A stretch of DNA of 42,089 nucleotides, taken from the IMG/VR virus record IMGVR_UViG_3300046492_000170, positions 1 to 42,089 of that record. The stretch is one strand, 5' to 3'. The notes beneath the pieces are model-generated. The model saw nothing but the letters and a program-made list of their open reading frames with translations. It made no database searches and was not told the DNA's origin. Positions 3,033 to 27,388 of the stretch are shown here, in pieces (position 1 is the stretch's first letter; each line of letters begins with the position of its first letter). A program made the position numbers and the translations under genes. This DNA comes from a virus.

Positions 3033-3920
3033 ATGCTAGCATACACACTTAAAGAAATTCTCGATCTTGTGCCGGAAGCCGCTTCATTTGTAAAGCAGGC
3101 TTCTGTAGAGCAAGAAATGCCCCTTGACAACAAGGACTCTTGCATCGCTACGGCCCTGCAAATGAAGTACCATGAAAAGGTCGCTTACAAGGCCGTAGAC
3201 GTTTTTGCGCTAGATAAAGTTGCAAAGGCTGTCGAAGCTTATGGCGTTCAGACTGAAGTAGCTGCACTAACTGACCGTATGGTCAAGGCTGCTGCACAGC
3301 GCACAGCTACAGCTGCTGCCATCGCTACTGACGACTACATGACCAAGCAAGCTTACTTCGAAGGCGAACTCTCAGGTCTTCGTGTAAACGGTACTCTTTC
3401 AAAGCAAGCTGCTGAGCTTTATGATGAAGCTAAAGAAAAGGGTATTGAGCCTAGCGAAGCCGTAGTACGTTATTCAGGTAACGGCTACATGGATAAGGAA
3501 GCTGCAGTTAAGGCACTTGCTAATCGTTTCTACGAAACCAAGAATCCTTCATTCGTTAAACTGGCTACTGCAATCCACAAGCTTCCACATCAAATTCGCC
3601 CAGAGACAGTTCGTGACATTTGTGATACAATTTCAGAAATGGACAAGCAAGCTGGTCTAGTCACTAAGGGCTATAACTTCTACAACGAAACAATCCATAC
3701 CAAAGAAGCTTCACTACGGTCATCACTGATGGTTAAGCTGTGCGGTAAGGACGTTCCATTTGAGAAAATTGCAAAGCTTGGTAAGGGTCATTTCTCATCA
3801 ATGATGGGTTCAGATATCGGTAATGAGTTCGACCACGGTCCTGCTCACTTCAAGCAAGTACTTGAAACCCTACCGATGGATCTGCAGAAAGTAGCTCTCC
3901 ACCTAACTAAAAACGTATAA
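3033..3920 (+). CDS. Hypothetical alanine-rich helical protein, possible virion protein
   Basis: 295 residues, Ala- and Lys-rich and predicted almost entirely helical. A short motif K-Q-A or K-E-A recurs (V-K-Q-A-S, T-K-Q-A-Y, S-K-Q-A-A, D-K-E-A-A, D-K-Q-A-G), suggesting degenerate internal repeats of about 40-60 residues. I do not recognise the family. The ATG is preceded by GATATAAACACT rather than a Shine-Dalgarno site. The gene ends three bases before the next ATG. An internal or scaffold-like virion protein would fit the composition and context, but this is inference. Confidence 0.65.
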   Translation: MLAYTLKEILDLVPEAASFVKQASVEQEMPLDNKDSCIATALQMKYHEKVAYKAVDVFALDKVAKAVEAYGVQTEVAALTDRMVKAAAQRTATAAAIATDDYMTKQAYFEGELSGLRVNGTLSKQAAELYDEAKEKGIEPSEAVVRYSGNGYMDKEAAVKALANRFYETKNPSFVKLATAIHKLPHQIRPETVRDICDTISEMDKQAGLVTKGYNFYNETIHTKEASLRSSLMVKLCGKDVPFEKIAKLGKGHFSSMMGSDIGNEFDHGPAHFKQVLETLPMDLQKVALHLTKNV

Positions 3921-3922
3921 GC

Positions 3923-4486
3923 ATGTTTGACGAAGAAGATATCGGCATTGAATTGAAAGCTCCTGATCCTAGGTTGGCAATGGCTTCAATTTCACACATC
4001 AAAGCCTCCTTGGATCGTATCTTCGGCAAGGGTGAGTGGAGAGATTTAGAAATCGAAACTATCTCTATTACGCTCGGTATGGTACTTGACACCTTAACTC
4101 GTGATAAGATTAGTGTTCTTCAGCTTATCGAAACTCAACCAGAACTGTACTTCGAAGACGCTGCGTTTACTCTGTATGCTACAGACGTTATTAATAACAT
4201 CGAAGCAGACTTTGAATTCGTACCTGCACCTACGACTCTTGAGCTAGCATACGCAATTACTGAAGTCCGTAAGGTTCTGACAGAGAACGGTATTTACATT
4301 CCAGTCGAGTCAACAGGTCTTGTAGCTACAGCTGCATACATGCTTAACCAAGAAGGATACTCAGTACCAGTAGCTCCATTTGACTTCATCCCCAATGAGA
4401 TGCTGTCAGAAGGTCAGACTACAGAAGATACTGAGAACAAAAAGAAAGCTATTAAGCGTTACATTAAAGAAATGAGTGGTGACTAA
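3923..4486 (+). CDS. Hypothetical protein, 187 residues
   Basis: Acidic, mostly helical protein that I do not recognise. No membrane segment or catalytic motif is evident; the C terminus is Lys/Glu-rich (E-N-K-K-K-A-I-K-R). Its start follows the previous stop by two bases (TAAGCATG) and its own stop touches the next ATG (TAAATG), so the three genes 3033-4894 are probably translated as a coupled set. A structural or assembly role is likely only from context. Confidence 0.65.
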   Translation: MFDEEDIGIELKAPDPRLAMASISHIKASLDRIFGKGEWRDLEIETISITLGMVLDTLTRDKISVLQLIETQPELYFEDAAFTLYATDVINNIEADFEFVPAPTTLELAYAITEVRKVLTENGIYIPVESTGLVATAAYMLNQEGYSVPVAPFDFIPNEMLSEGQTTEDTENKKKAIKRYIKEMSGD

Positions 4487-4894
4487 ATGTATTCAATCGA
4501 AATCGAAGTAAACAACCCAGTTACCATTACTGCTCAAGGGCCAAGCACAGGTCTTACAGCCCCACCTGACCAAATTCTTCTTTTCAATGGTGCAGTAAGC
4601 GTTCTTCCAGTTACGTTTGCCCCTGTCGCAGGTCCTCTATATAACTTGACATTTACACCTACTGTTACTGGCACATACTTGCTTTATGCGTTTGGTGTTA
4701 TTCAAGGAGTAGTAAATGTAGTAACTCAATCGCTTTACACAATTACCAAGAATATCCAAGATGAAGCCGTTGGTAGCTGGCAGTGGGATAAAACTGCTGG
4801 TACACTGATTATGCTTAGACAAGACGGTACGACCCTGGCTCAATTCACTGTCACAGATAATTTAACGATGTCCAGTCGTGAGCGAATCTCGTGA
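4487..4894 (+). CDS. Beta-rich hypothetical protein, possible virion/tail protein
   Basis: 135 residues, almost all beta strand, with Thr/Val/Pro-rich N-terminal half similar in texture to Ig-like phage domains (T-P-T-V-T-G-T-Y-L-L-Y-A-F-G). The C-terminal part (V-G-S-W-Q-W-D-K-T then L-R-Q-D-G-T-T-L-A-Q-F) resembles a segment common in phage tail and baseplate accessory proteins. The ATG directly abuts the previous stop codon. It is the last gene before the bidirectional terminator at 4915-4944. Function is not established from sequence. Confidence 0.6.
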   Translation: MYSIEIEVNNPVTITAQGPSTGLTAPPDQILLFNGAVSVLPVTFAPVAGPLYNLTFTPTVTGTYLLYAFGVIQGVVNVVTQSLYTITKNIQDEAVGSWQWDKTAGTLIMLRQDGTTLAQFTVTDNLTMSSRERIS

Positions 4895-4953: not shown

Positions 4954-6225
4954 TTAAAACTGACCGACGTTATCCCACACTGATGGCCGTGCTTCTTCTG
5001 CAGCCGCTTCAGGAAGAGCGAAAGATACGTTGTTAGCTTCAGCTTCAAAATCTACCAACGTAGGACCACTTACCTCGCCTACCAAGGGTTCCGAAGTTCC
5101 AACAAGTCCACTATAGACAGGAGTCATCTCAACATCCATCGGCTGAACCTGAATGATCGGACGAAGCTCCTTGACCTTGGCTTTCTTCTTGGGCTTCTCT
5201 GCTTCTTTAACTACCGGCTCGCCAGACGTCTGAGCCTTGATCAGAGCATCCACTTCAAGAGCATTACGACGAATGAACATATTCAGTACGTCAACGGCGT
5301 TAATGCCAGTCAGTCCTCCAAGCATTCCAGCACAACCCGTACCGATTTGAGTCAAATCAGCGTCGCCATGAATCATCTTGTTGCGATATTCCACAACTGT
5401 ATTCTTCGTATACGAGGTCGATCCACTGACGATATCAATCGACACCGCATTGTAGTCGATAGCCTTGTTATAGAAGTGATTCTGCACGAACGACAGAATG
5501 TACATAGCCATCAATGAATTGATAGCCAACGTCTGATCAAGATCTGCACAACTACCGAGACCAGGATTGTCTTCCAGATCACGATAGAAATAGTAGTCGA
5601 ATGGAATGTAGCTCAGATGATCGTGTGCGTACTCAATACGTTCCGGATTCTTGAAATGCGGACGCGCAGCTTCAGCACTACCATAATCGAAGTCAACAAA
5701 GCCGACGTTGTGGAACATACGGACTTGACCAAAACTGTCTTCGTTGCCTGCATCAATGAACACCGTGGGATCACCGTTAACGGAAAAAGTTTCGATAACA
5801 ATACGACGAGCTTTGGCACTGTCAACACACATGATAACCATGTCGTTGAAACGATGCTGAATATCAAGGCCGCTTACTTCCGATAGCAGACTGCGGAAGG
5901 CATACGGATTCGTACCTTCTTCAATGAACTTCGGATAAGCAACGACGTTCATGCCATATGCCTTTGCATATCGATTGGCCAGTACTGCAGCCTTGTTCTT
6001 ACCAACATCGCTCTGAACGAAGTTCTGACGAATCAGATTCTTCTGCTCAACAACGTCACCGTCAACCAAGACGATGTTCGTGGTACCGAGCCAACCAGAC
6101 GGTACGTGTTCTTTCGTGATGGAACGGATGAATTGAATCAGTGCCGGTACCAGCCGTGAGCCAGTTCCACCGCAGCCAACTACAAAAATGTTCGAAGGAA
6201 TAGAGGAGGGACGAAACGTAAACAT
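4954..6225 (-). CDS. E1-like/ThiF-family adenylating enzyme (PRTRC ThiF type)
   Basis: 423 residues. Residues 12-24 carry the Rossmann nucleotide-binding motif G-C-G-G-T-G (17-22). Residues 51-69 match the E1 signature: V-L-V-D-G-D-V-V-E with N-L-I-R-Q-N-F, followed by V-G-K-N-K-A (Lys76 region) and C-V-D-S-A (Asp135), the ATP/Mg-binding set of E1, MoeB and ThiF enzymes. G-S-C-A-D at 224-228 (Cys226) is the best candidate for the Cys seen at this place in the family. In these families the enzyme adenylates the C-terminal Gly of a ubiquitin-like protein. Residues from about 335 on form a Lys-rich then acidic tail not needed for the core fold. GGAG lies nine bases before the ATG; the promoter is at 6302-6311. 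It ends the ubiquitin-like cassette and is probably the activator of the Ubl at 10260-10682. Confidence 0.88.
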   Translation of the reverse strand: MFTFRPSSIPSNIFVVGCGGTGSRLVPALIQFIRSITKEHVPSGWLGTTNIVLVDGDVVEQKNLIRQNFVQSDVGKNKAAVLANRYAKAYGMNVVAYPKFIEEGTNPYAFRSLLSEVSGLDIQHRFNDMVIMCVDSAKARRIVIETFSVNGDPTVFIDAGNEDSFGQVRMFHNVGFVDFDYGSAEAARPHFKNPERIEYAHDHLSYIPFDYYFYRDLEDNPGLGSCADLDQTLAINSLMAMYILSFVQNHFYNKAIDYNAVSIDIVSGSTSYTKNTVVEYRNKMIHGDADLTQIGTGCAGMLGGLTGINAVDVLNMFIRRNALEVDALIKAQTSGEPVVKEAEKPKKKAKVKELRPIIQVQPMDVEMTPVYSGLVGTSEPLVGEVSGPTLVDFEAEANNVSFALPEAAAEEARPSVWDNVGQF

Positions 6226-6301
6226 AAAAAATGACTCCGAAAGTTAGACAACATATAGGCGCAATGACCTTGTTTAAGGACGTGGTGGTCCGTTCAATAC
6301 T

Positions 6302-6311
6302 CTTATACCAA
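6302..6311 (-). promoter_or_regulatory. Extended -10 promoter embedded in an upstream stop codon
   Basis: Minus-strand TTTGGTATAAG, 76 bases before the E1 start. The same bases encode the last codons of the zinc-finger gene (TTG-GTA-TAA), so its stop codon is part of the -10 element. It gives the E1 gene its own start of transcription. Confidence 0.65.
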
Positions 6312-6551
6312 AGAATCGGTATTTAAAGGACGAGGTCCAGTTTCTTCCCCGATGATAGCTACGTTGTTACCAGCAGAGAGAGCTGCATCAAGTTGCATCT
6401 CAAAATTCTTTTCTGTTTCTTTTTTATTGTCAGGCTTCATAGCGCAGTCGAAACAAATCATCGCACCTTTATGGCCGTAAGGTCGAAGCTCATAGCTGTC
6501 GAAATTTACCTTACAGTAAGCACATGCTATTTTCTTTTTTTCTTCAGTCAT
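6303..6551 (-). CDS. Small zinc-finger protein (two CxxC)
   Basis: 82 residues. Two C-x-x-C pairs, C-A-Y-C near residue 10-13 and C-F-D-C near residue 33-36, are spaced like a zinc ribbon or treble-clef finger; the rest is charged and probably helical. Short proteins of this kind bind nucleic acid or proteins; no more specific family is recognised. Its start overlaps the end of the 41-residue gene (6544-6669), and its last codons contain the promoter for the E1 gene. It lies between the JAB and E1 genes, so a link to the modification cassette is possible but unproven. Confidence 0.7.
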   Translation of the reverse strand: MTEEKKKIACAYCKVNFDSYELRPYGHKGAMICFDCAMKPDNKKETEKNFEMQLDAALSAGNNVAIIGEETGPRPLNTDSLV

Positions 6552-6669
6552 TGTGAGACTCTGCCAGCCATTCCAAAAAATGATTGTAATTTTTGAATCG
6601 ACGCCGTTTATCCGGATGGGCTTGACGCTCTAGAAAATACAAAAACCACTCAGTCATGTTGTAGTGCAT
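6544..6669 (-). CDS. Very short ORF, 41 residues
   Basis: Begins M-H-Y-N-M-T-E-W-F-L-Y-F-L-E and is rich in aromatic and basic residues. A strong Shine-Dalgarno-like run (AGGGGGAG) precedes it; the in-frame ATG at 6657 is an alternative start with a more relaxed spacing. It overlaps the gene before it by 16 bases and the gene after it by 8 bases, filling an otherwise empty gap, which is the main reason to believe it. Function unknown; it is too short for a domain call. Confidence 0.5.
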   Translation of the reverse strand: MHYNMTEWFLYFLERQAHPDKRRRFKNYNHFLEWLAESHND

Positions 6670-6860
6670 TTCTCCCCCTTATCATTTTCGTACCTAGCAA
6701 TAGCCATGCCAATTAGAAACGATAATCCATCGACACTGAAAGATGCAGAAATGAATGGGGGCGTTCCTTCTCCACCAGTCGTAATACAATGTGCTGCAGT
6801 GTGAAAATCTTTAACCAAATGGACAGTATTTTTATACGCCCAATCCATGACTTCACTCAT
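6654..6860 (-). CDS. Hypothetical protein, 68 residues
   Basis: Begins M-S-E-V-M-D-W-A-Y-K. It has a moderately hydrophobic segment (F-S-V-D-G-L-S-F-L-I-G-M-A-I-A) in the second half but no clear membrane anchor. AGGTGAG lies just before the ATG. It follows the JAB terminator at 6875-6902 and overlaps the 41-residue gene downstream. No promoter of the TTTGGTATAAG type precedes it, so expression probably depends on read-through from the JAB gene. Family not recognised. Confidence 0.55.
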   Translation of the reverse strand: MSEVMDWAYKNTVHLVKDFHTAAHCITTGGEGTPPFISASFSVDGLSFLIGMAIARYENDKGEKCTTT

Positions 6861-6874
6861 CTTCTCACCTATCT

Positions 6875-6902
6875 AAAAAAAGAAGCGCTCGGTTAGGAGC
6901 GC
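6875..6902 (-). terminator. Rho-independent terminator after the JAB gene
   Basis: Minus-strand stem GCGCTC / GAGCGC with six-base loop, followed by TTCTTTTTTT. It lies ten bases after the JAB stop codon, so it partly separates the Ubl/E2/JAB transcript from the three small genes. Confidence 0.8.
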
Positions 6903-6912
6903 CTCTGAATCC

Positions 6913-8226
6913 TTAATGGATACCGTTCATCTGGATACGTTCTTGAGCACTGTCAGGGAGTTCCTGATACAGACGCTTGAACAATTCCTCTTGACCTTCT
7001 TCTGACATCATATGAATCATATCTGCCATCAGAGTTTCTACGAGTTCATCCTTTCCGTTCAGCACAGCCATGCCATCATCGATCAAACAATAGATGTCAG
7101 CAACGTCTTTGCCATGAACTTCCTTGACTTCTTCATAACGTTCATCACAGTCAAACGTGGTGTTAGCATCAGGATCGAAATCAGGATTGTATGGAAACAA
7201 CTGCGGATGAGCGCTCAGATGAGACTCTTCATACTCAGGGTTCTCACGAAGAACAGCCAGAGCACGTTCTGCCTTATCAAGCGTAAGCATAGACGTGTCG
7301 ATGATACCGTCAGCGTCTACTGCATCAGGGTTGAAGGCCCAGGACTCCCAGGGGAAGCCTGCTCCAGCTCCAGCGGCAGCTGAGTGCTCCTCCCAATAGT
7401 TCCCATAACCATCGGGAAGTAACCCCCTATCACGAGCCTGCATATGTGGCCCTGCCCGATTTCCTACGTCCTCGCTTCCGCCCCTTGTGTACTGCCAAGG
7501 CTTTAGATGATCCGCTTTTCCCTTTGTGTTGTTCCCTCCAGTCGAATATCCAGGACTCGTAGTTACGATCTTGGAAATCCAATCTTCAGGAATTGCTTGC
7601 TCTTCACGAGTAGGGAGGACGAAGATGTCATCGAAGTTGCAGTCGATCTTCTTGTCCTTATAGTTAAAGCGCCACACCGTTTGAGGAGTTTCATCCTTCA
7701 GACGACCGATCACACCCGAGAAACCGATATTGCCACGGTCATCGTTATTGTCCGTGGTGCTGAAGAATGCACCCATCGTATTGTGACTATGAATGTCACA
7801 CACGATAGTCTTGCCAGCAGGCAGGGAGTTCCAGTCATACGATGCCGAAGCCTTCGACACACGTTGCTCAGGAACGATCAGATGATAACCACTCTCTTGA
7901 TCCCAACAAACCCAGATCATTGCTTCAAGCTCGGACTTCTTCACTTCCATCACTTGCTTGAAAAAGGCCACGACCTGATCAAACAACTGGATAGGAATCT
8001 TGCCGTCAGGCAGGAAGTTGATTTCTTGCGAGATCTTTCCTTCCTTATAGTTTGTCGGAAGTTTTTCCACCTTGAGTCGCACGAAACGATTACGACCACG
8101 AAGCTTGTGATGCTTGATAATACCTTCGCTGGTCATTGCGTAGATTTCGCTATAACCAGCGTCTACTGCTGCTTGAAGTTCATTGGGAAGAACAACGCAG
8201 CTAATGTGTTGGCTAATGATTTCCAT
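6913..8226 (-). CDS. JAB/JAMM metallopeptidase (PRTRC protein A type) with long C-terminal extension
   Basis: 437 residues. The zinc site of JAMM peptidases is complete: H146-S-H148, then S156 and D159 (H-S-H-x7-S-x2-D), on C-D-I-H-S-H-N-T-M-G. A preceding V-P-E-Q segment (Glu120) may supply the catalytic Glu. In E1-linked bacterial systems such enzymes cut at the C terminus of ubiquitin-like domains, so this one probably separates the two Ubl copies and may remove Ubl from targets (inference). Residues about 215-437 go well beyond the usual length of PRTRC A proteins and include a Gly/Ser/Arg/Ala-rich low-complexity stretch (about 225-290) and an acidic helical C terminus. AAGGAT precedes the ATG. 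It lies 14 bases after the E2-like gene and ends at a terminator. Confidence 0.88.
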   Translation of the reverse strand: MEIISQHISCVVLPNELQAAVDAGYSEIYAMTSEGIIKHHKLRGRNRFVRLKVEKLPTNYKEGKISQEINFLPDGKIPIQLFDQVVAFFKQVMEVKKSELEAMIWVCWDQESGYHLIVPEQRVSKASASYDWNSLPAGKTIVCDIHSHNTMGAFFSTTDNNDDRGNIGFSGVIGRLKDETPQTVWRFNYKDKKIDCNFDDIFVLPTREEQAIPEDWISKIVTTSPGYSTGGNNTKGKADHLKPWQYTRGGSEDVGNRAGPHMQARDRGLLPDGYGNYWEEHSAAAGAGAGFPWESWAFNPDAVDADGIIDTSMLTLDKAERALAVLRENPEYEESHLSAHPQLFPYNPDFDPDANTTFDCDERYEEVKEVHGKDVADIYCLIDDGMAVLNGKDELVETLMADMIHMMSEEGQEELFKRLYQELPDSAQERIQMNGIH

Positions 8227-8240
8227 TTGTATATCCTTGA

Positions 8241-8993
8241 TTAACGCGAATAACCACGAAGTTTGTTGTACGGGAATGCAAGATTGTCTTTAGCAGTTTG
8301 TGCAAGAAGTTCGAACCACTGATTAATAGTCATATCATCGCCTCGAACAGAACGCAGACCCAAGTCATTGTTGAACGGGGATTCGAACAAGAACTGATAA
8401 TACCAGTTCAGACCTTGAAGGTTGTTGTCCTGAAAGATCGAAGGCATTGAATTGCCACCATAACACATACGACCTTCAGGATACGTGTTCGGGAACGGAG
8501 AAATGAACACATGATTGCTGTGGTCTGGATCCCAGATTAAACCCTTCGGTAATGCACCAACCTTGGAATCTGTACAGAAGAACCTAGACTCAGTTACACG
8601 CCACTGCTTTCCGTTATGCTTATCAAGCTTGTGACTGATAATGAAGTTCGGCGTCTTAAGCGTGTACTTCGTATCCAAGTGAGCCATCTCAGCAATCCGC
8701 TCAGCATAGTAACAGCTGAGCTGAATCGAGTTACCAGACTTCGCAAAGAAGAAACAGTTTGCAGGAAGCTGGAATCCTTCAAGAGACTCTTCATTACGAC
8801 GATTCAGAATCGAGTTAATGATGCTCCCGAAATCTTCGTACGTAATACGCTTTTGAATCTGACTCGTGTCATCACCAATCAAAGCTGCTACACAATCTTC
8901 AAAGAGAATAATGTGTTGGCCTTGTGCGTTGACAAGCTCCACTTGTTCTTCCACATTAACTTCTTTAACTTCATCAACAATAAAGTCGCTCAT
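8241..8993 (-). CDS. E2-like protein (PRTRC protein B family)
   Basis: 250 residues. The segment F-P-N-T-Y-P-E-G-R-M-C-Y-G-G-N around residues 168-181 matches the conserved Cys-containing core of PRTRC protein B / prokaryotic E2-like proteins, with Cys177 the likely thioester-forming residue. The position between Ubl and JAB genes is the classic PRTRC order. In this family the protein is predicted to take the activated ubiquitin-like protein from E1 and pass it to a target. The assignment rests on my recall of the family motif and on synteny, not on a database search. The ATG overlaps the previous gene's stop (ATGA), with GAGGAT upstream, so translation is coupled to the 85-residue gene. Confidence 0.75.
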   Translation of the reverse strand: MSDFIVDEVKEVNVEEQVELVNAQGQHIILFEDCVAALIGDDTSQIQKRITYEDFGSIINSILNRRNEESLEGFQLPANCFFFAKSGNSIQLSCYYAERIAEMAHLDTKYTLKTPNFIISHKLDKHNGKQWRVTESRFFCTDSKVGALPKGLIWDPDHSNHVFISPFPNTYPEGRMCYGGNSMPSIFQDNNLQGLNWYYQFLFESPFNNDLGLRSVRGDDMTINQWFELLAQTAKDNLAFPYNKLRGYSR

Positions 8994-9247
8994 ACGAAAT
9001 CCTCTTCATCCTCTTCAACAGATGCATGTTTGGCTTTAACAATTCCCATTTCAATGGTCTTAACGCTAACCTTACGCCTGGAGGTAGTCTCACAAGCATA
9101 GGTTTTAATCGTTACCTTAGCCATTGTTTCAAGGTCTTTAGCACTGAGATCGCTTCCGATAGAATTGAACTCTCTCTGTGCTTCCTTAACTTCCGATGAC
9201 AGATCAGGTAGAGCTGTCGCTTCCGATATTAAACGCTGCAGTATCAT
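8990..9247 (-). CDS. Hypothetical 85-residue protein of the Ubl cassette
   Basis: Not recognised. The first half is a charged amphipathic helix (S-S-E-V-K-E-A-Q-R-E-F), the second half includes V-K-T-I-E-M-G-I-V and ends in a very acidic tail (E-E-D-E-E-D-F-V). It overlaps the preceding 305-residue gene by 44 bases and the E2-like gene by four. The ATG at 9247 has only a poor ribosome-binding site, so translation probably depends on the upstream gene. The tight overlaps on both sides suggest a partner or adaptor of the cassette. Confidence 0.6.
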   Translation of the reverse strand: MILQRLISEATALPDLSSEVKEAQREFNSIGSDLSAKDLETMAKVTIKTYACETTSRRKVSVKTIEMGIVKAKHASVEEDEEDFV

Positions 9248-10121
9248 AGTTCGATTTTCTAGAAAGTGTCTTGATTACTTGTTGCATCTCTTCCAGAACG
9301 AGGAAGATTTTCTCTACTGCCATAAACCTTTCTGAATCCGGGTAGACTGAAAGCCCACGACGAGAAGTGATATCGTATGTGTCCCATAGCTGAACGTCTC
9401 TATATGCACGAAGATTATCCAGTTGATTATTTTCAAGAAAATGTTGGGCAAGCTTTTCGTGAGTATCAACGCCTGGAATTGGCTCAACACCGAGAGGATT
9501 ATAACGTAGATACGCATCATGTGAGTATCCACGAATGGATACTTTTGCAGTCAGTGTAATTTTGAATCTGCCAGTGAAGTCAGACTTCGGACCTCTGTTA
9601 TTGGTCCACTGTCTATACGTATCATGTTCATCTGCATGGCCTTCTACGTTTGTACGAATCCGGTCAATGTTGAGAGAGATACCATTTCTCATACACTTGT
9701 AGTTCAGAAATCGAAAGTAACGACGCATTACTTTAACCCACTTAGCGCTTTCTAAGAGGAGTGAGACTTCATTACCATCAGGAATAGTGAGCATCATGTA
9801 CGGAGAAACAAGCTTTATGTTTACGCTGTTAGCCCCGTTGTTATTAAACAGAAGATCCCCCCCAGACATATACTCAAGATACGGAACCTGTTTCTTAACC
9901 GCCTTAAGCAGAATGTCTTTCAATTTCTGTACTGACTTACGTTGACCACCAGACCTCGAACCACACATATCAAACTGGTAATTGAACGTCTTCGTTGACA
10001 GTTTGCTATCAATGATCATCTTGGTGCAGAAATGTTTGAATTTCTCTTCTACATCTACTCTAAGCTTATTCACCTCTCTAGGTAAATTAGAGCTTGAGCG
10101 AGGTACTTTAAAAGTCTGCAT
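9204..10121 (-). CDS. Hypothetical 305-residue protein of the Ubl cassette
   Basis: Not recognised by motif. It is a mixed alpha/beta basic protein with no transmembrane segment; it contains a run of Asn near residue 92-95 and several Arg/Lys-rich patches, so nucleic-acid binding is possible. In PRTRC cassettes a protein (PRTRC F) of comparable size usually sits between the Ubl-like protein C and the E2-like protein B, and this gene holds that place; homology to it is only a positional guess. AAGGACA lies eight bases before the ATG. It follows the terminator after the Ubl gene, so its transcription depends on read-through. Confidence 0.65.
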   Translation of the reverse strand: MQTFKVPRSSSNLPREVNKLRVDVEEKFKHFCTKMIIDSKLSTKTFNYQFDMCGSRSGGQRKSVQKLKDILLKAVKKQVPYLEYMSGGDLLFNNNGANSVNIKLVSPYMMLTIPDGNEVSLLLESAKWVKVMRRYFRFLNYKCMRNGISLNIDRIRTNVEGHADEHDTYRQWTNNRGPKSDFTGRFKITLTAKVSIRGYSHDAYLRYNPLGVEPIPGVDTHEKLAQHFLENNQLDNLRAYRDVQLWDTYDITSRRGLSVYPDSERFMAVEKIFLVLEEMQQVIKTLSRKSNYDTAAFNIGSDSST

Positions 10122-10170
10122 AGTAAATGTCCTTTATTATTCCTGTTTTTCTTAAGCTCCTAGCTCGACT

Positions 10171-10222
10171 AAAAAAAACAGGAAAGACGAGCAGCTTGGC
10201 TAGGAGGAACCCTGCTGCTCGT
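10171..10222 (-). terminator. Terminator/attenuator after the Ubl gene
   Basis: Minus-strand stem ACGAGCAGC / GCTGCTCGT (nine pairs, 10187-10195 with 10214-10222), 18-base loop, followed after seven bases by TTTTTTTT. The loop CTCCTAGC can also pair with AGCTAGGAG downstream, giving an alternative fold. It lies between the Ubl gene and the enzyme genes and should make Ubl RNA more abundant than enzyme RNA. Confidence 0.65.
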
Positions 10223-10259
10223 ACCATTACTCAGATGCTAAAAGCAACTGAAGTAATAC

Positions 10260-10682
10260 TTAACCCTTCGTACCCGTGCGCGGCTTGAAGGTGATCTCAC
10301 GGACGGTCTCGCCGTCTTGCGTCACAACACGCTCTTCGAACTGCATCGAACCGATGTTCGGGATGTCGTTCGCATAATTGCGTTGAATCGATGCCGGGGT
10401 GTAGTCACCCGGAATCTGGTACTCCGTGTCCGTCGAAGCGATGGTCACGATGGTCTTCGTTACACCAGCGCCCTTCGTACCCGTACGGGGCTTGAAGGTG
10501 ATTTCACGAACCGTTTCACCGTCTTGCGTAACGACACGCTCTTCGAATTGCATGCTGCCGATATTAGGAATATCGTTAGCGTAGTTGCGTTGGATCGAAG
10601 CCGGTGTGTAATCACCCGGAATTTGGTACTCGGTGTCGGTCGAAGCGATGGTAACGATAGTCTTGGTTACGGTTGCAGCCAT
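10260..10682 (-). CDS. Tandem ubiquitin-like protein (two identical PRTRC protein C / Prok_Ub copies)
   Basis: 140 residues made of two identical 67-residue copies (residues 5-71 and 74-140) joined by Ala-Gly. Each copy has the beta-grasp-like pattern of the PRTRC C family: strand K-T-I-V-T-I-A-S, then P-A-S-I-Q-R-N-Y-A helix, strand Q-F-E-E-R-V, and a final strand R-E-I-T-F-K-P-R followed by the tail T-G-T-K-G. The ends in Gly match substrates of E1-like enzymes; the internal G-T-K-G before Ala72 is the obvious site for the JAB peptidase, and the second copy is already mature because the stop codon follows G140. The ATG is preceded by AAAGGA. Promoter at 10755-10764, terminator right after. 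Codon choice is more GC-rich than in neighbours, fitting high expression. Confidence 0.88.
   Translation of the reverse strand: MAATVTKTIVTIASTDTEYQIPGDYTPASIQRNYANDIPNIGSMQFEERVVTQDGETVREITFKPRTGTKGAGVTKTIVTIASTDTEYQIPGDYTPASIQRNYANDIPNIGSMQFEERVVTQDGETVREITFKPRTGTKG
10263..10463 (-). repeat. C-terminal Ubl coding copy
   Basis: Encodes residues 74-140. By hand count it differs from the other copy at about 32 of 201 bases in 30 codons with no amino-acid change, including one Ser TCG against AGC swap. More GC-rich at third positions than the N-terminal copy. Confidence 0.85.
10470..10670 (-). repeat. N-terminal Ubl coding copy
   Basis: Encodes residues 5-71, offset 207 bases from the other copy. 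Identical in protein, diverged at synonymous positions. Confidence 0.85.
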
Positions 10683-10914: not shown

Positions 10915-11406
10915 CTACTTGATCAGAGCAACCGAACGGGTGTATCCCCCGTCCATTGCCTTTTTCAAGATCTCAGCTATTTCCACGAAGGTAGCACCCA
11001 TGTCGTTTATCCCTGATAATGAAAGAGAATGTAATTCCAGAGTATTCCCTTCCTCATCCGGAAATCTACCTCCTACGTACAGTCCTAGTGGACCTAGTTC
11101 AGACCCGTAATGACCTCGAACAAAAGGAGTTAAATGGTCCTTGACAGCATTCTCTGTAGAACAAGCTTCATTCGGGAGAAAACTGTACGCATGTGCTCCA
11201 GTATCAAAAGTCCAACCTTCTGGATCAACGAGGTTACAAGCAACCCCGAGACAGCAGAAGCCAGTCTCATCTCTTAGAGCGAACGTAGTCTGCTTGAACT
11301 CGCCAGACTCAAGGGCATTGATCCACCTTTCCCATTGCTGCTTCTGATCGTCAGTCAGAACTACGCTGGGAATACGTTCAATTACTGCGCCACACATTAG
11401 TCTCAT
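10915..11406 (-). CDS. Conserved phage protein of unknown function (FCCLGV family)
   Basis: 163 residues. The core W-I-N-A-L-E-S-G-E-F followed by F-C-C-L-G-V-A-C-N-L is a signature I know from many unrelated phage proteins of unknown function, with conserved paired Cys. The C-terminal half has L-S-L-S-G-I-N-D-M-G, also typical of that family. AAAGGG lies eight bases before the ATG. It is a one-gene unit with promoter 11493-11502 and terminator 10853-10881. Nothing ties it directly to the Ubl cassette beyond strand and position. Function cannot be inferred. Confidence 0.75.
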   Translation of the reverse strand: MRLMCGAVIERIPSVVLTDDQKQQWERWINALESGEFKQTTFALRDETGFCCLGVACNLVDPEGWTFDTGAHAYSFLPNEACSTENAVKDHLTPFVRGHYGSELGPLGLYVGGRFPDEEGNTLELHSLSLSGINDMGATFVEIAEILKKAMDGGYTRSVALIK

Positions 11407-11524: not shown

Positions 11525-13135
11525 ATGGATACAGCAAGCCTTTTAAAACTAAGACCCTCCGAGATTTCCAAGGCACTTTTAACCCTAAAAGGTAAACCTC
11601 TAAATCTCGAAGACTACAAACCGTTCGAAATCATCTATGACGTTTCTCCAAATGAAATGACGCTGATGGCTGGACGACAGATTGGTAAGTCAGTCTCACT
11701 TGGCGCAGCTATTGTTGCCAACAGCCTCGTTCGTCCACACTTTTCAACTCTATTCAGCAGCCCGTTATCTCAACAGACTTCAAGATTCTCAACAGCATAC
11801 CTAGACCCGTTCTTAAGCTCACCTCTGATTCGTAAACACTTCGTTGATGCAGGTTCACGTAAAAACGTATTCTCTAAATCATTCACTAATGGCAGTGCTG
11901 TAACTCTTGGTTATGCAGAAACTGAACAAGATGCCGACCGTATTCGAGGAGTGTTCGCTGATGCGCTATATCTGGATGAGTTCCAGGACACCAGCCTTGA
12001 ATGTGCACCGATTCTTGCAGAGACATTAGGTGCTTCAGACTTTGCCTTCAGACGATATACAGGCACGGCTAAGACAGAAACAAACTCACTCACACAAAAG
12101 TTCAAGCAATCGAACATGATGGAGTGGGCGGTTAAGTGTACACATTGCGGTAAGTTCACGCTTCCTATCGATTTCGATATTTGTCATAAAATGCTGCATG
12201 CAAACAAAGATGGTCCAGGCTGTGTGTATTGTGGTGGCTTGCTTGATATGATGACTGGCAAGTGGGTAGCGGCAAAGCCTTTAGAGAAGGATCATTATGG
12301 ATTCCATTTGCCACAGCTAATCTTCCCTGCACGTACAAAGCCTAAGAAGTGGAAAGATCTTCTTCATAAATCGAAGACATATTCAGTACCTAAACTTGCT
12401 AACGAAGTGTTTGGATGCCCTAGCGGTCTAGCTGGTCGTCCACTATCACTTAAAGAAGTAATGGCATGTTGTAACAACAACAAGACTGAGTGGGATAAGG
12501 GTTTTCCTATGGATGACCGGGGTATTCTACATACAGTGCTTGGAGTAGACTGGTCAGTGAGCGGTGGCTCAAACTCGTATACGGTTATTACTATTCTTGG
12601 CTATGACTGGAATGGCAAAGCTTATCTAATCTACGCTCAACGCTTAAACGGTATTGACATCTTGGATCAGGTAAAGCGTGTAGAAGAACTGTACGCTCAA
12701 TATAAATGTACCATGCTTGCTTCAGACCGTGGTGTTGGTCAGCTTCAAGTAGAATTGATGAGAAAAAGTATTGGCGAAGATAGAGTTAATTCTGTACAAT
12801 ATGTAGCAGCAAAGTCTACGCTTCGTTGGGACAAAGAGGGGAAGTTCTTTTCTGCAGATAGAACTACTAATATGGACACGATGGTACTTAAGGCTAAGCT
12901 TGGTCGTGACCGTATTGAAACACCATGCTGGAATCTGATGTCAGAGTTCTGGCAAGATGCGCTAAACATTTTCGAAGAGGAATCCATTACTGGACGTCGC
13001 CTTTATAAGAAAGATGAAGACTTGTGTGATGATTGGTTCCACAGCATAGTTTTCGCTAACATAGCGTATATGGTTCTTAAAGGTGAGTTCACAACAGTGG
13101 ACGAAGTTAAGGACAATAACATATTTGATTTTTAA
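11525..13135 (+). CDS. terL: Terminase large subunit
   Basis: 536 residues. ATPase half: Walker A A-G-R-Q-I-G-K-S at 49-56 and Walker B A-L-Y-L-D-E at 147-152 followed by F-Q-D. A zinc-ribbon-like insertion has C-T-H-C (205-208) and C-V-Y-C (233-236). Nuclease half (RNase H fold): L-G-V-D-W-S (Asp342), L-A-S-D-R-G (Asp401) and C-D-D-W-F-H (Asp502/503), the usual acidic triad. The enzyme cuts concatemeric DNA and drives packaging through the portal. Length is normal. The small subunit and portal are not seen next to it, an arrangement found in large myoviruses. The start ATG is preceded by ATAGGAAC. Nine bases separate it from the tail chaperone gene. Confidence 0.93.
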   Translation: MDTASLLKLRPSEISKALLTLKGKPLNLEDYKPFEIIYDVSPNEMTLMAGRQIGKSVSLGAAIVANSLVRPHFSTLFSSPLSQQTSRFSTAYLDPFLSSPLIRKHFVDAGSRKNVFSKSFTNGSAVTLGYAETEQDADRIRGVFADALYLDEFQDTSLECAPILAETLGASDFAFRRYTGTAKTETNSLTQKFKQSNMMEWAVKCTHCGKFTLPIDFDICHKMLHANKDGPGCVYCGGLLDMMTGKWVAAKPLEKDHYGFHLPQLIFPARTKPKKWKDLLHKSKTYSVPKLANEVFGCPSGLAGRPLSLKEVMACCNNNKTEWDKGFPMDDRGILHTVLGVDWSVSGGSNSYTVITILGYDWNGKAYLIYAQRLNGIDILDQVKRVEELYAQYKCTMLASDRGVGQLQVELMRKSIGEDRVNSVQYVAAKSTLRWDKEGKFFSADRTTNMDTMVLKAKLGRDRIETPCWNLMSEFWQDALNIFEEESITGRRLYKKDEDLCDDWFHSIVFANIAYMVLKGEFTTVDEVKDNNIFDF

Positions 13136-14092: not shown

Positions 14093-17000
14093 ATGATCCC
14101 ACCTTCAGCTTATAACATGCTCGGCAACATTTATCAGTCTCAGGCTGATACGTATACCAATTCGTTTGCCAATCCGATGAATCCTGCGAATATGAATCCA
14201 GGTTTCGGAATGGATCCGAATTTGCTTACGCCTAGCTACACAGCAGGATACAGACCTCAATATGATGGTCCTCAGCCATACAATCAATATGGTCGAGTAG
14301 GTTTCTTTGCTGGTGTTAACAATATTCTTAACCCTACTTCGTCAGAGCCTAGATACGGTAATCCTATCGATAACAACACTCAGACTATGGAGGGTGTATC
14401 ATCACGTCCGTTTGATTCAGTAGTTTGGGCTGGTCAACGTATTGCTGCTCCAGCATTAGCTTTCGGAGCTGCATTCAAGTACACGTCAGGAATAGGTGCT
14501 TGGGCAGGAGGAACTACAGGCCGTGCGCTTGGAGCGGGTATTGCTTCAGGCATGGGCGGATATATGCCTGGCTTTGTTGGACGTGGACTTACAGGAGGTC
14601 TTGGCGCTGTAGGTGGACTAGCTGGTAGATTGTTCTTACCCGTAGCTGTTGGTCAAGCTGCAATGGCAGTAGGTCAAAGAGCCATCTTCAACCCATACAT
14701 GAATACTCGCCGTGAAGCACGTGACTTACGTGATAACTTCCAGGGAGTAACATTTGATGGCGCGCAAGGTAATGCTGTAACAGGTCAAGGACTTGGTTTC
14801 AGAGAGTCTACTCAGATCGCCCAGCAGATCACTAAGCAAGGTATTAACGACTTTTCGTTCTCGACAGGCGAGTATGCAAACATTGCTGACTACACTGCCC
14901 GTTCAGGCATGCTGGATGACACCAAGGTTAAGCAAATTAGTCAACGTGTCAAGGACGTAGCTGAACAAGTCAAGCTAGTAATGGCTATTGCCGGTGACCC
15001 TTCGATTAAGAACGCTATTGAAGAAATTTCTAAGCTTCACAGTGCTGGCGCATCAGTATCAGGCCCTAACAGCCAAGCTTCAAGAGCATTTATGTCTCTT
15101 GGACTAAGCGCAGCCGTGTCTGGCCGTAGCGTACAGAACATCATGAACACTGTTGGTGCTCAAGGTCAGTATCTATACCAAGCAAACGGCATGACACCTT
15201 ATCTAGGTCAAATGGCTGCTGCTAACATCATTGGTTCGTTCGATACAGCAAGGCGTAACGGTATTCTCAATACCTCGCAAATCGCTCGTATGGGTGGAGT
15301 TGAAGGTGCAACACAAGCATCGCTAACAGCACAGGTTAACGGTTCACAAACGTTGCTTAACAAAATGGCAATGTACAACCAATATATCAATGGCCGTACA
15401 GGATCTAGTAATTCTGGTCCTGGAATGAGCATTACCAATGTTACTTCACAGTTTGGATCAGACTTCAGTCGTGACCCTATGAAGGCGTATGGTGGAATGC
15501 ATCTATATAGCCGTGTACTTGGCGGTAAGCAGATGGATGAGCGTGGATCATTAGCTCTGGAAGATCAGATTACTTCTATTCTTGATTCGACGGCTACCCA
15601 GAGGGATAAGAACGGTAAATACAGTGCTGAACAGATGGCTGGCGTAATGTCAGGCGTTATGGGTATGAGCGATGATGAAATTCAGGCTTATATCGCCCAA
15701 CGTACTGCTGAGTCAGATCCAGGCACATATCGTCAAGGCCTTAAAGCACGTAATGCTCAGACACAGAAACAACTGCGTCAATACGTGTCCCAAAACTATC
15801 TTTATGGCGGTGCTATCGGCGGAACTGTACGTAGTCTAATGAAAGGCGGCAGAAACGTCACATCGTTGATGGGTGAGGCTGCTGGTTGGTTTGCAGAAGG
15901 CTCAGCTGCAGTTGGTGATGCTACTCAGAGCGGAGCTGATTGGTTACAGTTCGGTGCTTCATTCGGTGACAATTACACTACTTCAGACATGGATAAAGTG
16001 ATTGACTCCATGACTACTGGCAGAAAGACAAACAATCAAGCTCCTGCTGAGACTAGTATGAACCTCCTTAATGAGGGCCATGACTTCTTCTCGGGACGTA
16101 CTCTTACTGATCTTGGTCGTGTAGGAAGCCGTATTGCTAATGGCGACACATTGATGGGTAGTGATTCAATCAAGATCACTCAACAAATCAACGCATTGGC
16201 TAAGCAAGGCAATAAAAACGCTCAAGCGTTTATTAATGCTACGGATAAACAAGGTCGTAGCAAGGCTCTTGGAACTCTGCTTAAAGAGAACAAGGCAGAT
16301 ATGGCTAACGTAGCAGGTCTTCTGTCTGGCGGTGGTTCAAGAGAGTCAAGCGGTAACTTTGACTCATTCCTTGATGATGTAGGTTCGTTCGGTAATCACG
16401 AAGAATTAGTTAAAAATCAACAAGGCCAGGTTAAGGGTTTGATGGGTGACGTTGTTAAAACTCTTGGCGAAGAGAAAATACCAGAAGGTCACCGTAAAAA
16501 CTTCCTTGACTCAGTAAATGCAATCGGTCAGGTTTCAGATCTTGCTAACAAGATTGCTGGTGGTGCAAGCCAAGCTGAGATTCGTGACATGCTTAACAGC
16601 GGTCAATATGACCAAGTCAAGGGTCTTGTTGGTGGCCGTGGTGATAGAGAAGCTGTTGATTACATTACTGATACATACAAGCGTTCAGTTGAAACTGGCT
16701 TAGGTCAATTAGGTAACCTGGCTTATACCGGTGGTTTTAACGTCGATGAGTTCAAGAAGAATCCTAATCGCATTCAAGATAAGAAACAACGTGATGCATT
16801 TATTGCCGCCATGAAGTCAGGCGATACGGCTACGATGGAAAACATTGTTTCTAAGCAACTCGGTTATGCAGCAGGTGGGAAGCTAAAAACAGAAGGTCTG
16901 AAAGGTGCTACGAGTCAGAGTCTTAACGATGTAGTAGGATTCCAGCAACACCTTGACTTAGAAGGTCAAGAGAATGCCAAGGCATATGAAAAAGTTGCTT

Positions 17001-24991: not shown

Positions 24992-27388
24992 ATGGCAAAT
25001 TTCTACTCTGTTCTACCTGGCCTTCAACCCTCAGCGCAAGATATTCTTGAAGCCGAGCTTCTAGCCAAGCAAATTCTTGAAGCACAATATCCAGACCTAG
25101 ACCTCCGAGAAGGTACAGGGCTTCGTGATATGGTTCTGCGACCATCTGCTATGCTACTGGCACTGGTTCGTCTTGGTATCGATTACTACTTTGCTCAGAA
25201 CACTATTGCTGGAGTAAATGATACTACTCCTACTAGCATCGTTGATAACATTCTTTCAAACTGGTTTATTAACCGTAACCTTGGTACTCGTGCTGTTATT
25301 AGCGCACGTCTATTCTTTGCCAAGCAAAAGAACGTATCTCTAACGACTGATATCTTTTTCTCAACCGATAACATCTCTAAGTTCTTCCCTCAGGCTGCAG
25401 TTACATTCAGCTCAGGCACGCTTACATATGATGCTTTCCAAAACGAATACTATGTTGACGTTGACCTAGTTGCAGAAGCAGAAGGAACACAGTACAACAT
25501 CGGTTCAGGCTCACTTCTTTACTTCTCTAACTTTGATCCGTACTTCCTTCACGCAGAAATTAACTTCCTGAAGGATACTTCAGTATCATCAGAGACTAAC
25601 GAAGAGTTTATTACACGTGCTCAGAACGCTATTTCTACACGTAATCTGATTAACGATCCATCAATCAGTTCAAACCTGCAGAATACCTTTAACTTTCTGG
25701 ATAAGATCGTTTCAATCGGTATGGGAGATCCTGAAATGATTCGAGATCAGATTCAGGCTGTATTCACAGGTCAGCTAGCACAGCTCATTACTCAGCTTAC
25801 CAGCTCAGGTACTACTGCGACTGCTACCTTGGCTAATCACGGCTACAACTCAGGCCAAACTGTAACCATTGCAGGTGGTGCTCCGACGACATACAACGGT
25901 TCATATACGATTACCGTAGTTGATACTTCGCACTTCACGTATCAGATGGCTACGGCTGCAACTAACGTAACAGTTCTTCCTACTGTTCAGGCTGTGAACT
26001 CACCATTGCTTATCCATAACGGCGGCATGGTTGACGTGTACTGTGGCAACACCATTGCTACGTCAATCGTACAGGTTACAACAGACGATTTTGGTGATGC
26101 TGACTTGACTGGCGCAATCTACAACTTCACACGTAGCTCTGTAAGCGGTGGAAGCTCAGACGATACTATTCCTTTTCTAGCCACGATCTCTGCTTCAAGC
26201 ACGACGGTTGCAGCTAATCTAGGTCTTGTTCACGTTGCTTCAACTAGCCACGGACTATCAACTGGCCAAATGGTTACAGTGTCAGGTCTTGTTGAAACGT
26301 TGCCTATTACTTCGATTTCATGCTCGGCAATTACTGTAACTGTAGTTTCTGCTAACCACGGTCTGACAAGTGGTACGTCTGTAACCATTCAAGGCGTAAC
26401 ACCGATTCAGTACAATGGTACGTTCCCGATTAACGTAGTTGATGCTAATACTTTCAACTACATCGTATCATTTAACATTGCAACGCCCGGTTCTGGCTCA
26501 TCAATGCTTATTGCCAACCCATCGCTTACAGGACAGTTTTCTGTAAACGTGCTAAGTGCAAATGCGTTTGACATTGTAATGCCTGGCCTTTGGACAAATG
26601 CTACCGTCACTAACAACATCGTTATTAACTATGCTGTACCATTTACCTTTAAAAACAAAAATACGCAAAGCCAAGCTATTACTGCGCTTACTTGCACAGG
26701 TACTACTGTTACCGTAACAATTCCTAACCACGGAATTACTGAGAACCGCTATGTGACAATTCGTGGTGCAACTCCATCCGATTACAACGGTACATGGCTA
26801 GTAACTAACGCTCTTAATAAAGATCAGTTCCAATTCACAGTTCCAGTAACTATCGGAAGTCCTGGTTCAAATGCAGTATGTGATTCTGTTATTCCTTGGT
26901 TCGATTATGGTTTTAGCTCCCGTCAAGACTTGGTTGTAAGCTTTGGTTCACTCTATGCTAATCAAACAGCAAGTTTCCAAATCAGCTTCTTTGATAACGT
27001 TGATAGCGTACAGTCATATCTAGAGAACTCAACAAACCGTGTACTGTGTGGAGATTTGCTTGCTCGTGGATTTAACTTCTACTTGATCGATCTGTCAGTA
27101 ACTGGCTATAATGGCGTGTCCCCAGATGCGACCGTAATTACTGAAACTACAAAGAATTTCTTCAGTAATATGAATCCAGGTGATACCTTGATTCTTTCAG
27201 ATCTTATGGCTCAGCTTTCACTAGCCGGTATTACGAATATCAAGACTCCGCTTGGCGTAGCTTACACTCATTACACTCGTGACTTGATTCCTGCAACCAC
27301 AGGTATGATCACTGACTATCTAGATCCAGCAGATAGAACTAACATCTTTATACTGAACACTGTAACAACGAATAACCAAACAGTTTAA
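24992..27388 (+). CDS. Baseplate wedge protein, gp6/J-like, with inserted repeat domains
   Basis: 798 residues. Residues 1-260 show the J/gp6 pattern (E-A-Q-Y-P-D-L-D-L-R-E-G-T-G-L-R-D, later T-N-E-E-F-I-T-R-A-Q-N-A). The C-terminal 170 residues finish that fold. Between them are copies of a small beta module with N-H-G-x-x-x-G-x-x-V-T-I-x-G and Y-N-G: residues about 268-320, 398-530 and 565-617. The middle one is itself split by another copy at 442-510, so one module is nested in another. These wedge proteins join the hub to the outer baseplate; the modules probably decorate the surface. Much of the length excess over the family comes from them. No Shine-Dalgarno; the ATG is preceded by CTATAACT. 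Confidence 0.75.
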   Translation: MANFYSVLPGLQPSAQDILEAELLAKQILEAQYPDLDLREGTGLRDMVLRPSAMLLALVRLGIDYYFAQNTIAGVNDTTPTSIVDNILSNWFINRNLGTRAVISARLFFAKQKNVSLTTDIFFSTDNISKFFPQAAVTFSSGTLTYDAFQNEYYVDVDLVAEAEGTQYNIGSGSLLYFSNFDPYFLHAEINFLKDTSVSSETNEEFITRAQNAISTRNLINDPSISSNLQNTFNFLDKIVSIGMGDPEMIRDQIQAVFTGQLAQLITQLTSSGTTATATLANHGYNSGQTVTIAGGAPTTYNGSYTITVVDTSHFTYQMATAATNVTVLPTVQAVNSPLLIHNGGMVDVYCGNTIATSIVQVTTDDFGDADLTGAIYNFTRSSVSGGSSDDTIPFLATISASSTTVAANLGLVHVASTSHGLSTGQMVTVSGLVETLPITSISCSAITVTVVSANHGLTSGTSVTIQGVTPIQYNGTFPINVVDANTFNYIVSFNIATPGSGSSMLIANPSLTGQFSVNVLSANAFDIVMPGLWTNATVTNNIVINYAVPFTFKNKNTQSQAITALTCTGTTVTVTIPNHGITENRYVTIRGATPSDYNGTWLVTNALNKDQFQFTVPVTIGSPGSNAVCDSVIPWFDYGFSSRQDLVVSFGSLYANQTASFQISFFDNVDSVQSYLENSTNRVLCGDLLARGFNFYLIDLSVTGYNGVSPDATVITETTKNFFSNMNPGDTLILSDLMAQLSLAGITNIKTPLGVAYTHYTRDLIPATTGMITDYLDPADRTNIFILNTVTTNNQTV

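Follow-up and report, generated by a model that had tools for sequence, protein, structure and literature searches.

Does a phage carry a complete ubiquitin-like conjugation pathway of its own, and what would such a pathway act on? The question is raised by a locus in the IMG/VR virus record IMGVR_UViG_3300046492_000170, of which the whole stretch of 42,089 nucleotides was analysed (hereafter the window). Positions 4954 to 10682 hold, on the minus strand, genes for a ubiquitin-like protein (Ubl) in tandem form, for an E2-like protein, for a protease of the JAMM/JAB type and for an enzyme of the E1/ThiF type. A sequence-only reading had placed these four genes here, all leftward, as a complete phage-borne cassette. 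All four were found at these positions and in this orientation, and the completeness of the set is supported by profile matches, by the predicted fold, by catalytic residues that do not vary and by the fixation of the genes in a phage clade. From 10682 down to 4954 the order is Ubl precursor, P305, P85, E2-like, JAB/JAMM, two small genes, both lineage-specific, and E1/ThiF. P305 and P85, both without names, lie in the interval from Ubl to E2 and are part of the set, which consists of the following genes.

10260..10682, minus strand: Ubl precursor, 140 amino acids (aa), two 67-aa units identical as protein, each ending R-T-G-T-K-G, with an AG linker.
9204..10121, minus strand: P305, 305 aa; its position is conserved, as is its sequence in most relatives; fold not recognised.
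8990..9247, minus strand: P85, a small gene located between P305 and E2; relatives have a counterpart at the same place.
8241..8993, minus strand: E2-like protein, 250 aa, with invariant Cys177 and Asn169 in F-P-N-x7-C.
6913..8226, minus strand: JAB/JAMM metalloprotease, 437 aa, with E101 and H146-S-H148-x7-S156-x2-D159.
4954..6225, minus strand: E1/ThiF-like adenylating enzyme, 423 aa, with D55, D57, R66, K78, D135 and the candidate catalytic C226 (SCADLD).

The identities of the three enzymes were assessed by profile searches. The E1 matched PF00899 (E = 5.4e-15), with one ThiF match covering residues 11-173 of 423, and the JAB and E2-like proteins matched PF14464 (E = 1.4e-9) and PF14460 (E = 1.5e-7, 31.8 bits against a cut-off of 25), so that the E1, JAB and E2 all pass the Pfam cut-offs. 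The NCBIfam models TIGR03735-03738, which the sequence-only reading had also proposed for comparison, gave matches below their cut-offs for all four proteins: 78.4 bits against 101.8 for JAB (TIGR03735), 91.5 against 144.75 for E1 (TIGR03736, E = 5.2e-26), 23.9 against 131.45 for E2 (TIGR03737) and 15.1 against 45.95 for Ubl (TIGR03738). Profile-profile comparison matched the E2 to PRTRC_B (E = 6e-5). No sequence relatives of E2, JAB or Ubl were found in the PDB.

The active sites are conserved. D55, D57, R66, K78, D135 and C226 of the E1 are invariant in 31 distinct relatives; the conserved lysine is K78 and not Lys76, the residue first named for mutation together with D135. The JAMM residues E101, H146, S147, H148, S156 and D159 are likewise kept in the 31 relatives, bar gaps from a split open reading frame (ORF), in line with the intact zinc site first described. 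The canonical E2 motif is H-P-N-x7-C. In the phage proteins its spacing is retained and the histidine replaced, and both C177, the proposed catalytic residue, and N169 are invariant in 31/31 relatives.

Two apparent losses of function were rejected. JAB seemed broken in the loci L135, L137 and L160, where group I introns interrupt the ORF within or right after the JAMM H-S-H codons, at slightly different positions (L135:6078-6353 and L137:6667-6941, both on the minus strand). A scan at gathering level found no group I intron; the group I intron model was matched end to end at E = 1.3e-5 (L135) and 2.4e-6 (L137), below the Rfam gathering score. L160 is nearly the same as L137. Introns often sit in strongly conserved sites. 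The E1 of Vibrio phage D69 seemed to lack its N-terminus; its deposited start is set too late (L007:9959-10969) and drops the ATP-binding half.

The direct profile match of the Ubl is weak (E = 0.019 for TIGR03738). A profile built from 23 phage Ubl units matched the PRTRC_C Ubls with 95% probability (hhalign, E = 3e-8), and AlphaFold2 predicted a single unit to adopt a beta-grasp with strand order E-E-H-E-E (pLDDT, the predicted local distance difference test, 89.4) and a loose GTKG tail (residues 65-71). The sequence-only reading had described a tandem Ubl ending in G-T-K-G, and had named a lack of profile matches for the Ubl and E2 as a refutation; the two units and their GTKG ends are present, the E2 passes the Pfam cut-off, and the Ubl is supported by profile-profile comparison and predicted fold. 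The last glycine, G71, is invariant in 23/23 units, and the precursors carry GxKG.

Within the clade of related phages described below, the precursors contain one to five units, each ending GTKG or sometimes GNKG or GAKG. Many phages have a single unit, and two occur in the window, L020, L029, L033 and L034. Vibrio phage D69 has three plus a five-residue tail, and the phage of L162 has five in tandem plus one extra residue (L252:2637-3743; 172-kb phage contig). Several precursors carry tails after GTKG, such as C, AKR, VCA, ND and longer ones. The two units of the window differ at 30 of 67 codons (32 nucleotides; synonymous divergence, dS, about 1.3) and at no amino acid. About 15 amino-acid changes would be expected from the ratio of nonsynonymous to synonymous divergence of the E2 (dN/dS about 0.075), a rough estimate as dS is near saturation. 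This argues that each unit acts as a free modifier. Between the units of other precursors there is one amino-acid change in L033 (23 nucleotide differences), one in L020 (27) and eight in L029. The Ubl is also 100% identical between the window and L004, yet its dS is 0.23 against 0.8-2.6 for the other genes of the set; this low value suggests recent exchange or codon constraint and weakens the identity as proof of constraint on the protein. The comparison of units inside one gene is free of the exchange problem, because their dS is ~1.3. In a Lysinibacillus plasmid (L107:6458-7534) and a faecal phage (L008:7-924), the N-terminal part of the JAB resembles a Ubl ending GSKG or NKG. These apparent Ubl-xKG-JAB fusions agree with JAB cutting after a GTKG-type motif.

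A ThiF-type E1 next to a Ubl could also mean that the Ubl is a sulfur carrier of the ThiS/MoaD kind, activated for thio-modification with the E2-like and JAB proteins as accessories, and prokaryotic Ubl-JAB pairs do occur in sulfur pathways (PMC1779556). We consider this very unlikely, as an E2-like protein with an invariant cysteine and an oxyanion-type asparagine plays no part in the sulfur-carrier pathways known so far, the set is without a rhodanese or thio-enzyme, and the poly-Ubl precursors are unlike ThiS/MoaD. The genes very probably form a real conjugation cascade.

To see how widely the set occurs, viral contigs were searched with JAB and E2 alignments, and a search with the terminase large subunit (TerL) was then run as the reverse test. 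The genes that anchor the conserved synteny in the window are the following.

11525..13135, plus strand: TerL, divergent neighbour of the set.
3033..4894, plus strand: fl3033, fl3923 and fl4487, three conserved genes that flank the E1 in relatives and whose counterparts in Salmonella phage Arash are in the particle proteome.

Many viral contigs, measuring up to ~190 kb, came up in the JAB and E2 search. In them the block Ubl-P305-P85-E2-JAB-E1 is flanked by the terminase on one side and by the three structural-region genes on the other, and is encoded on the opposite strand. The set is a fixed feature of one clade of phages, ~165-190 kb in size, to which Arash and the Vibrio phages D69, D148 and D181 belong; JAB and E2 are present in all four of these, the cultured members of the phage collection. 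Among the loci of the TerL clade with enough flanking DNA, several of whose contigs are near duplicates, the set was found in 40/40 and no locus was without it. In 38 of the 40 it directly adjoins the terminase and is encoded on the other strand. In L141 the E2, JAB and E1 lie just past the retrieved stretch (same contig as L097). In L162, the most distant locus, the set seemed lost and was found about 14 kb from the terminase. The next nearest terminases, outside the clade, are near 25% identical.

The set has also been inherited together with the terminase. Distances of E2, E1 and JAB follow those of TerL (Mantel r 0.83-0.89, 0/5000 permutations), and the 31 cassettes with invariant catalytic residues span TerL proteins that are up to 56% different. 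The phage E1s have a single origin: in a tree of 153 sequences, all 34 fall in one clade (support 0.992), apart from 119 other E1s. A scan of cellular genomes yielded JAB relatives that are only 25-43% identical, and none of their E1s fell inside the phage clade, so that the scan revealed no link to a prophage or host. The set is a core gene block inherited vertically rather than a stray acquisition, for which reason the word cassette undersells it.

The particle proteome of phage Arash lists 116 of its ~252 proteins (PMC10585845 Table 2). Near the block the gene numbers of that paper misfit the deposited numbers, and the coverage percentages fit after a shift of +1: 77.17% is 267/346 for the E1, 61.41% is 253/412 for the JAB, 76.25% is 244/320 for P305 and 80.50% is 128/159 for the counterpart of fl3923. 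The E2 coverage of 100% fits any length and is uninformative in this respect. After the shift, the E1 (3 unique peptides, 430 spectra), the JAB (2, 369), the E2 (5, 226) and P305 (2, 379) are all detected in the particles (PMC10585845), which is suggestive of packaging of these four proteins. The Arash Ubl (OQ632216) was deposited in the wrong frame as gp251c, which the GTKG-ending ORF overlaps (L006:107-307), and the Ubl was therefore probably missed in the proteome. The corrected Ubl ORF, of 66 aa, occupies bases 180513-180713 of the Arash record on the minus strand.

These data, together with the position among structural genes, would also fit a role of the Ubl and its enzymes as structural or scaffold parts of the particle, that is, exapted folds that conjugate nothing. 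Exaptation usually loses catalytic residues, and all those of E1, E2 and JAB are kept in 31 divergent cassettes, which makes such a role most improbable. The main rival concerns the target: a cascade that is injected or made early could tag host proteins, for takeover or counter-defence, rather than virion proteins. The four proteins are reported with the particle beside early enzymes such as RNA polymerase (PMC10585845), and Ubl conjugation is already a weapon in the conflict of phages and bacteria (Bil, CBASS). Fixation beside TerL and inheritance parallel to it across different hosts speak for a core function rather than for accessory counter-defence, and we regard the host as an unlikely main target. 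Virion or assembly proteins come first as a class of targets, given the site among structural genes, the linkage to the terminase and the particle data; that they are the main targets is quite possible, if short of probable.

Several observations weigh against the cascade reading. The +1 correction rests on coverage arithmetic, and JAB and P305 were detected by two unique peptides each. Ribonucleotide reductase and DNA ligase are also in the Arash proteome, so that carry-over is possible. No E3 was recognised in the set. No significant PDB match was obtained for the Ubl by sequence or fold, the top Foldseek match to its model being a ubiquitin-like domain at E = 0.13. Some precursors stop exactly at GTKG, and processing is therefore not required in every phage. 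Finally, the downstream histidine that is "absolutely conserved" in the E2s of the bacterial type 6d operon (Iyer, Burroughs and Aravind 2006, PMC1779556) is replaced in the phages (N17 D8 S3 T1 Q1 Y1 in 31 cassettes).

Taking these points together, we moderately favour the interpretation that the block is a phage-encoded Ubl-conjugation cascade, part of a vertically inherited core, that acts in virion formation or from the virion. From its parts we infer how Ubl processing, thioester formation, conjugation and the target would be connected. The Ubl precursor would hold between one and five units and, in some phages, a C-terminal tail. JAB would cut after each GTKG to expose the C-terminal glycine, and may also strip conjugated Ubl. 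The E1 would adenylate the terminal glycine and probably hold the Ubl on Cys226, and the E2 would receive it on Cys177 and pass it to an amine of the target. P305 and P85, as conserved partners, are candidates for target choice or scaffolding. For P305, a target-recognition (E3-like) or scaffold subunit is a candidate role; its predicted model is mixed alpha/beta and gave no fold match in the PDB. The C-terminus of P85 is acidic-aromatic in most relatives (EEDFV, DDDFI, GDIDYV). Late infection would be the most likely setting; proteins of the phage virion or of its assembly would be the targets, and the enzymes would finish up in or on the particle.

A more specific proposal, which we put forward tentatively, is that in a whole lineage of large tailed phages the virion proteins must be modified with Ubl, supplied by polyubiquitin-like precursors, in order to mature, and that the particle takes up the enzymes. 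If true, this would be the first complete virus-encoded Ubl pathway serving virus assembly. The Ubl systems Bil and CBASS are bacterial and directed against phages; here phages own the full set and keep it in every member found, and the modifier is often encoded as a polyubiquitin-like chain, an arrangement familiar mainly from eukaryotes. No description of this phage gene set was found in the open-licence PMC literature. As Arash is cultured, can be grown on a standard strain and has a particle proteome, the role of the phage ubiquitin is open to direct test.

The remaining features of the locus and its surroundings are the following.

10125..10259, minus strand: gap between the Ubl and enzyme genes, strongly structured; it contains one hairpin of 9 bp and a longer one with a U8 run and is a possible terminator or attenuator.
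6654..6860, minus strand: small ORF of 68 aa, lineage-specific, outside the conserved set.
6303..6551, minus strand: protein of 82 aa (phrog_18256) that carries two CxxC pairs; it lies between JAB and E1, is shared with L004 and is outside the conserved set.

The gap folds at -52.5 kcal/mol, against -31.3 for shuffled sequences (z -6.1); a scan for consensus terminators does not list it. The structure may allow Ubl to be produced in excess over the enzymes. The C-terminus of the 82-aa protein (NNVAIIGEETGPRPLNTDSLV in the window) is nearly unchanged between the window and L004. A 163-aa protein of phrog_18067 lies between Ubl and terminase (10915-11406, minus strand), occurs also in L004, has a look-alike in L016, and is not in every relative. 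In L004 an ORF that by eye resembles an HNH endonuclease (14350-14952, minus strand) lies beside the cassette; it may be a mobile element that inserted between the E1 gene and the structural genes. Positions 900-1650 of the window hold similar overlapping small ORFs on both strands, which resemble non-coding repeats. A virion protein at 24992-27388 scored 28.6 against a threshold of 29.5 bits for the E1_FCCH domain model, probably a chance match.

How does the set compare with known systems? It shares with the PRTRC cassettes of plasmids and integrated elements (TIGR03735-03738, 03741, 03742) the order Ubl (C), extra gene (F), E2 (B), JAB (A) and ThiF, with P305 in the F place, and weak but real homology for all four proteins. 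The PRTRC_C of Burkholderia phage BgVeeders33 also ends GTKG. Membership was rejected, as all four proteins fall under the NCBIfam cut-offs. No cassette protein matched the NCBIfam models of PRTRC_E or PRTRC_F, both of which were matched by the positive control L009, and P305 was rejected as PRTRC_F (hhalign probability 0.2%). A scan of the cassette and neighbouring proteins, covering part of the window genes, gave no ParB match. Unlike PRTRC, the set of the large phages has poly-Ubl, long C-terminal extensions of JAB and E1, and vertical inheritance beside TerL; FTHPN of the plasmid and Burkholderia E2s is replaced by FNNDL.

The type 6d operon resembles the set in its separate Ubl with a conserved C-terminal glycine, a JAB with an N-terminal domain, an E1, an E2 with a conserved cysteine and one extra protein (PMC1779556). 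Apart from the E2 histidine, it differs in the JAB N-terminal domain, where arginine and tryptophan are strictly conserved in type 6d (PMC1779556): RPW of the Burkholderia phage becomes R-x-F/A/Y in the large phages, in a region where the alignment is weak. P305 is not recognisably the alpha-helical protein of type 6d. Lambda-type phages, too, encode a Ubl (tail gene I) and a JAB (tail gene K, JAB+NlpC) close to their structural genes (PMC1779556); E1 and E2 are absent there, and gene order and domains differ.

Bil (BilABCD) also combines Ubl, E2, JAB and E1, with tandem Ubl and conjugation in a phage-bacterium setting. The CEHH motif of its E2 (C, E+6, H+8, H+13; PMC11354881) is absent: C177 of the window E2 is followed by YGGNSMPSIFQDN, with neither E nor H at those positions. 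The Bil E1 has an inactive and an active adenylation domain, whereas that of the window has a single ThiF domain, and Bil sits on the bacterial side, the window set on that of the phage. No PADLOC model matched the window E2, JAB or Ubl. The Bub operons (bacterial ubiquitination-like) are reported to have the bacterial E1-E2-Ubl logic in common.

The eukaryotic polyubiquitin genes UBI4 and UBC show, as does the window, head-to-tail units that are identical as protein and diverged in codons. Yeast UBI4 has five units and a single extra residue, the layout found in the phage of L162. The phage units differ in ending GTKG rather than LRGG and in their independent duplications, and a JAMM protein encoded in their own block is predicted to process them.

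By the features tested, the set is thus neither PRTRC proper nor Bil; the E2 histidine and the JAB-N tryptophan set it apart from type 6d. It is related to the PRTRC and type 6d operons while failing their cut-offs and these two hallmarks, and on the evidence of its parts it would work as the PRTRC, Bil and type 6d systems do.

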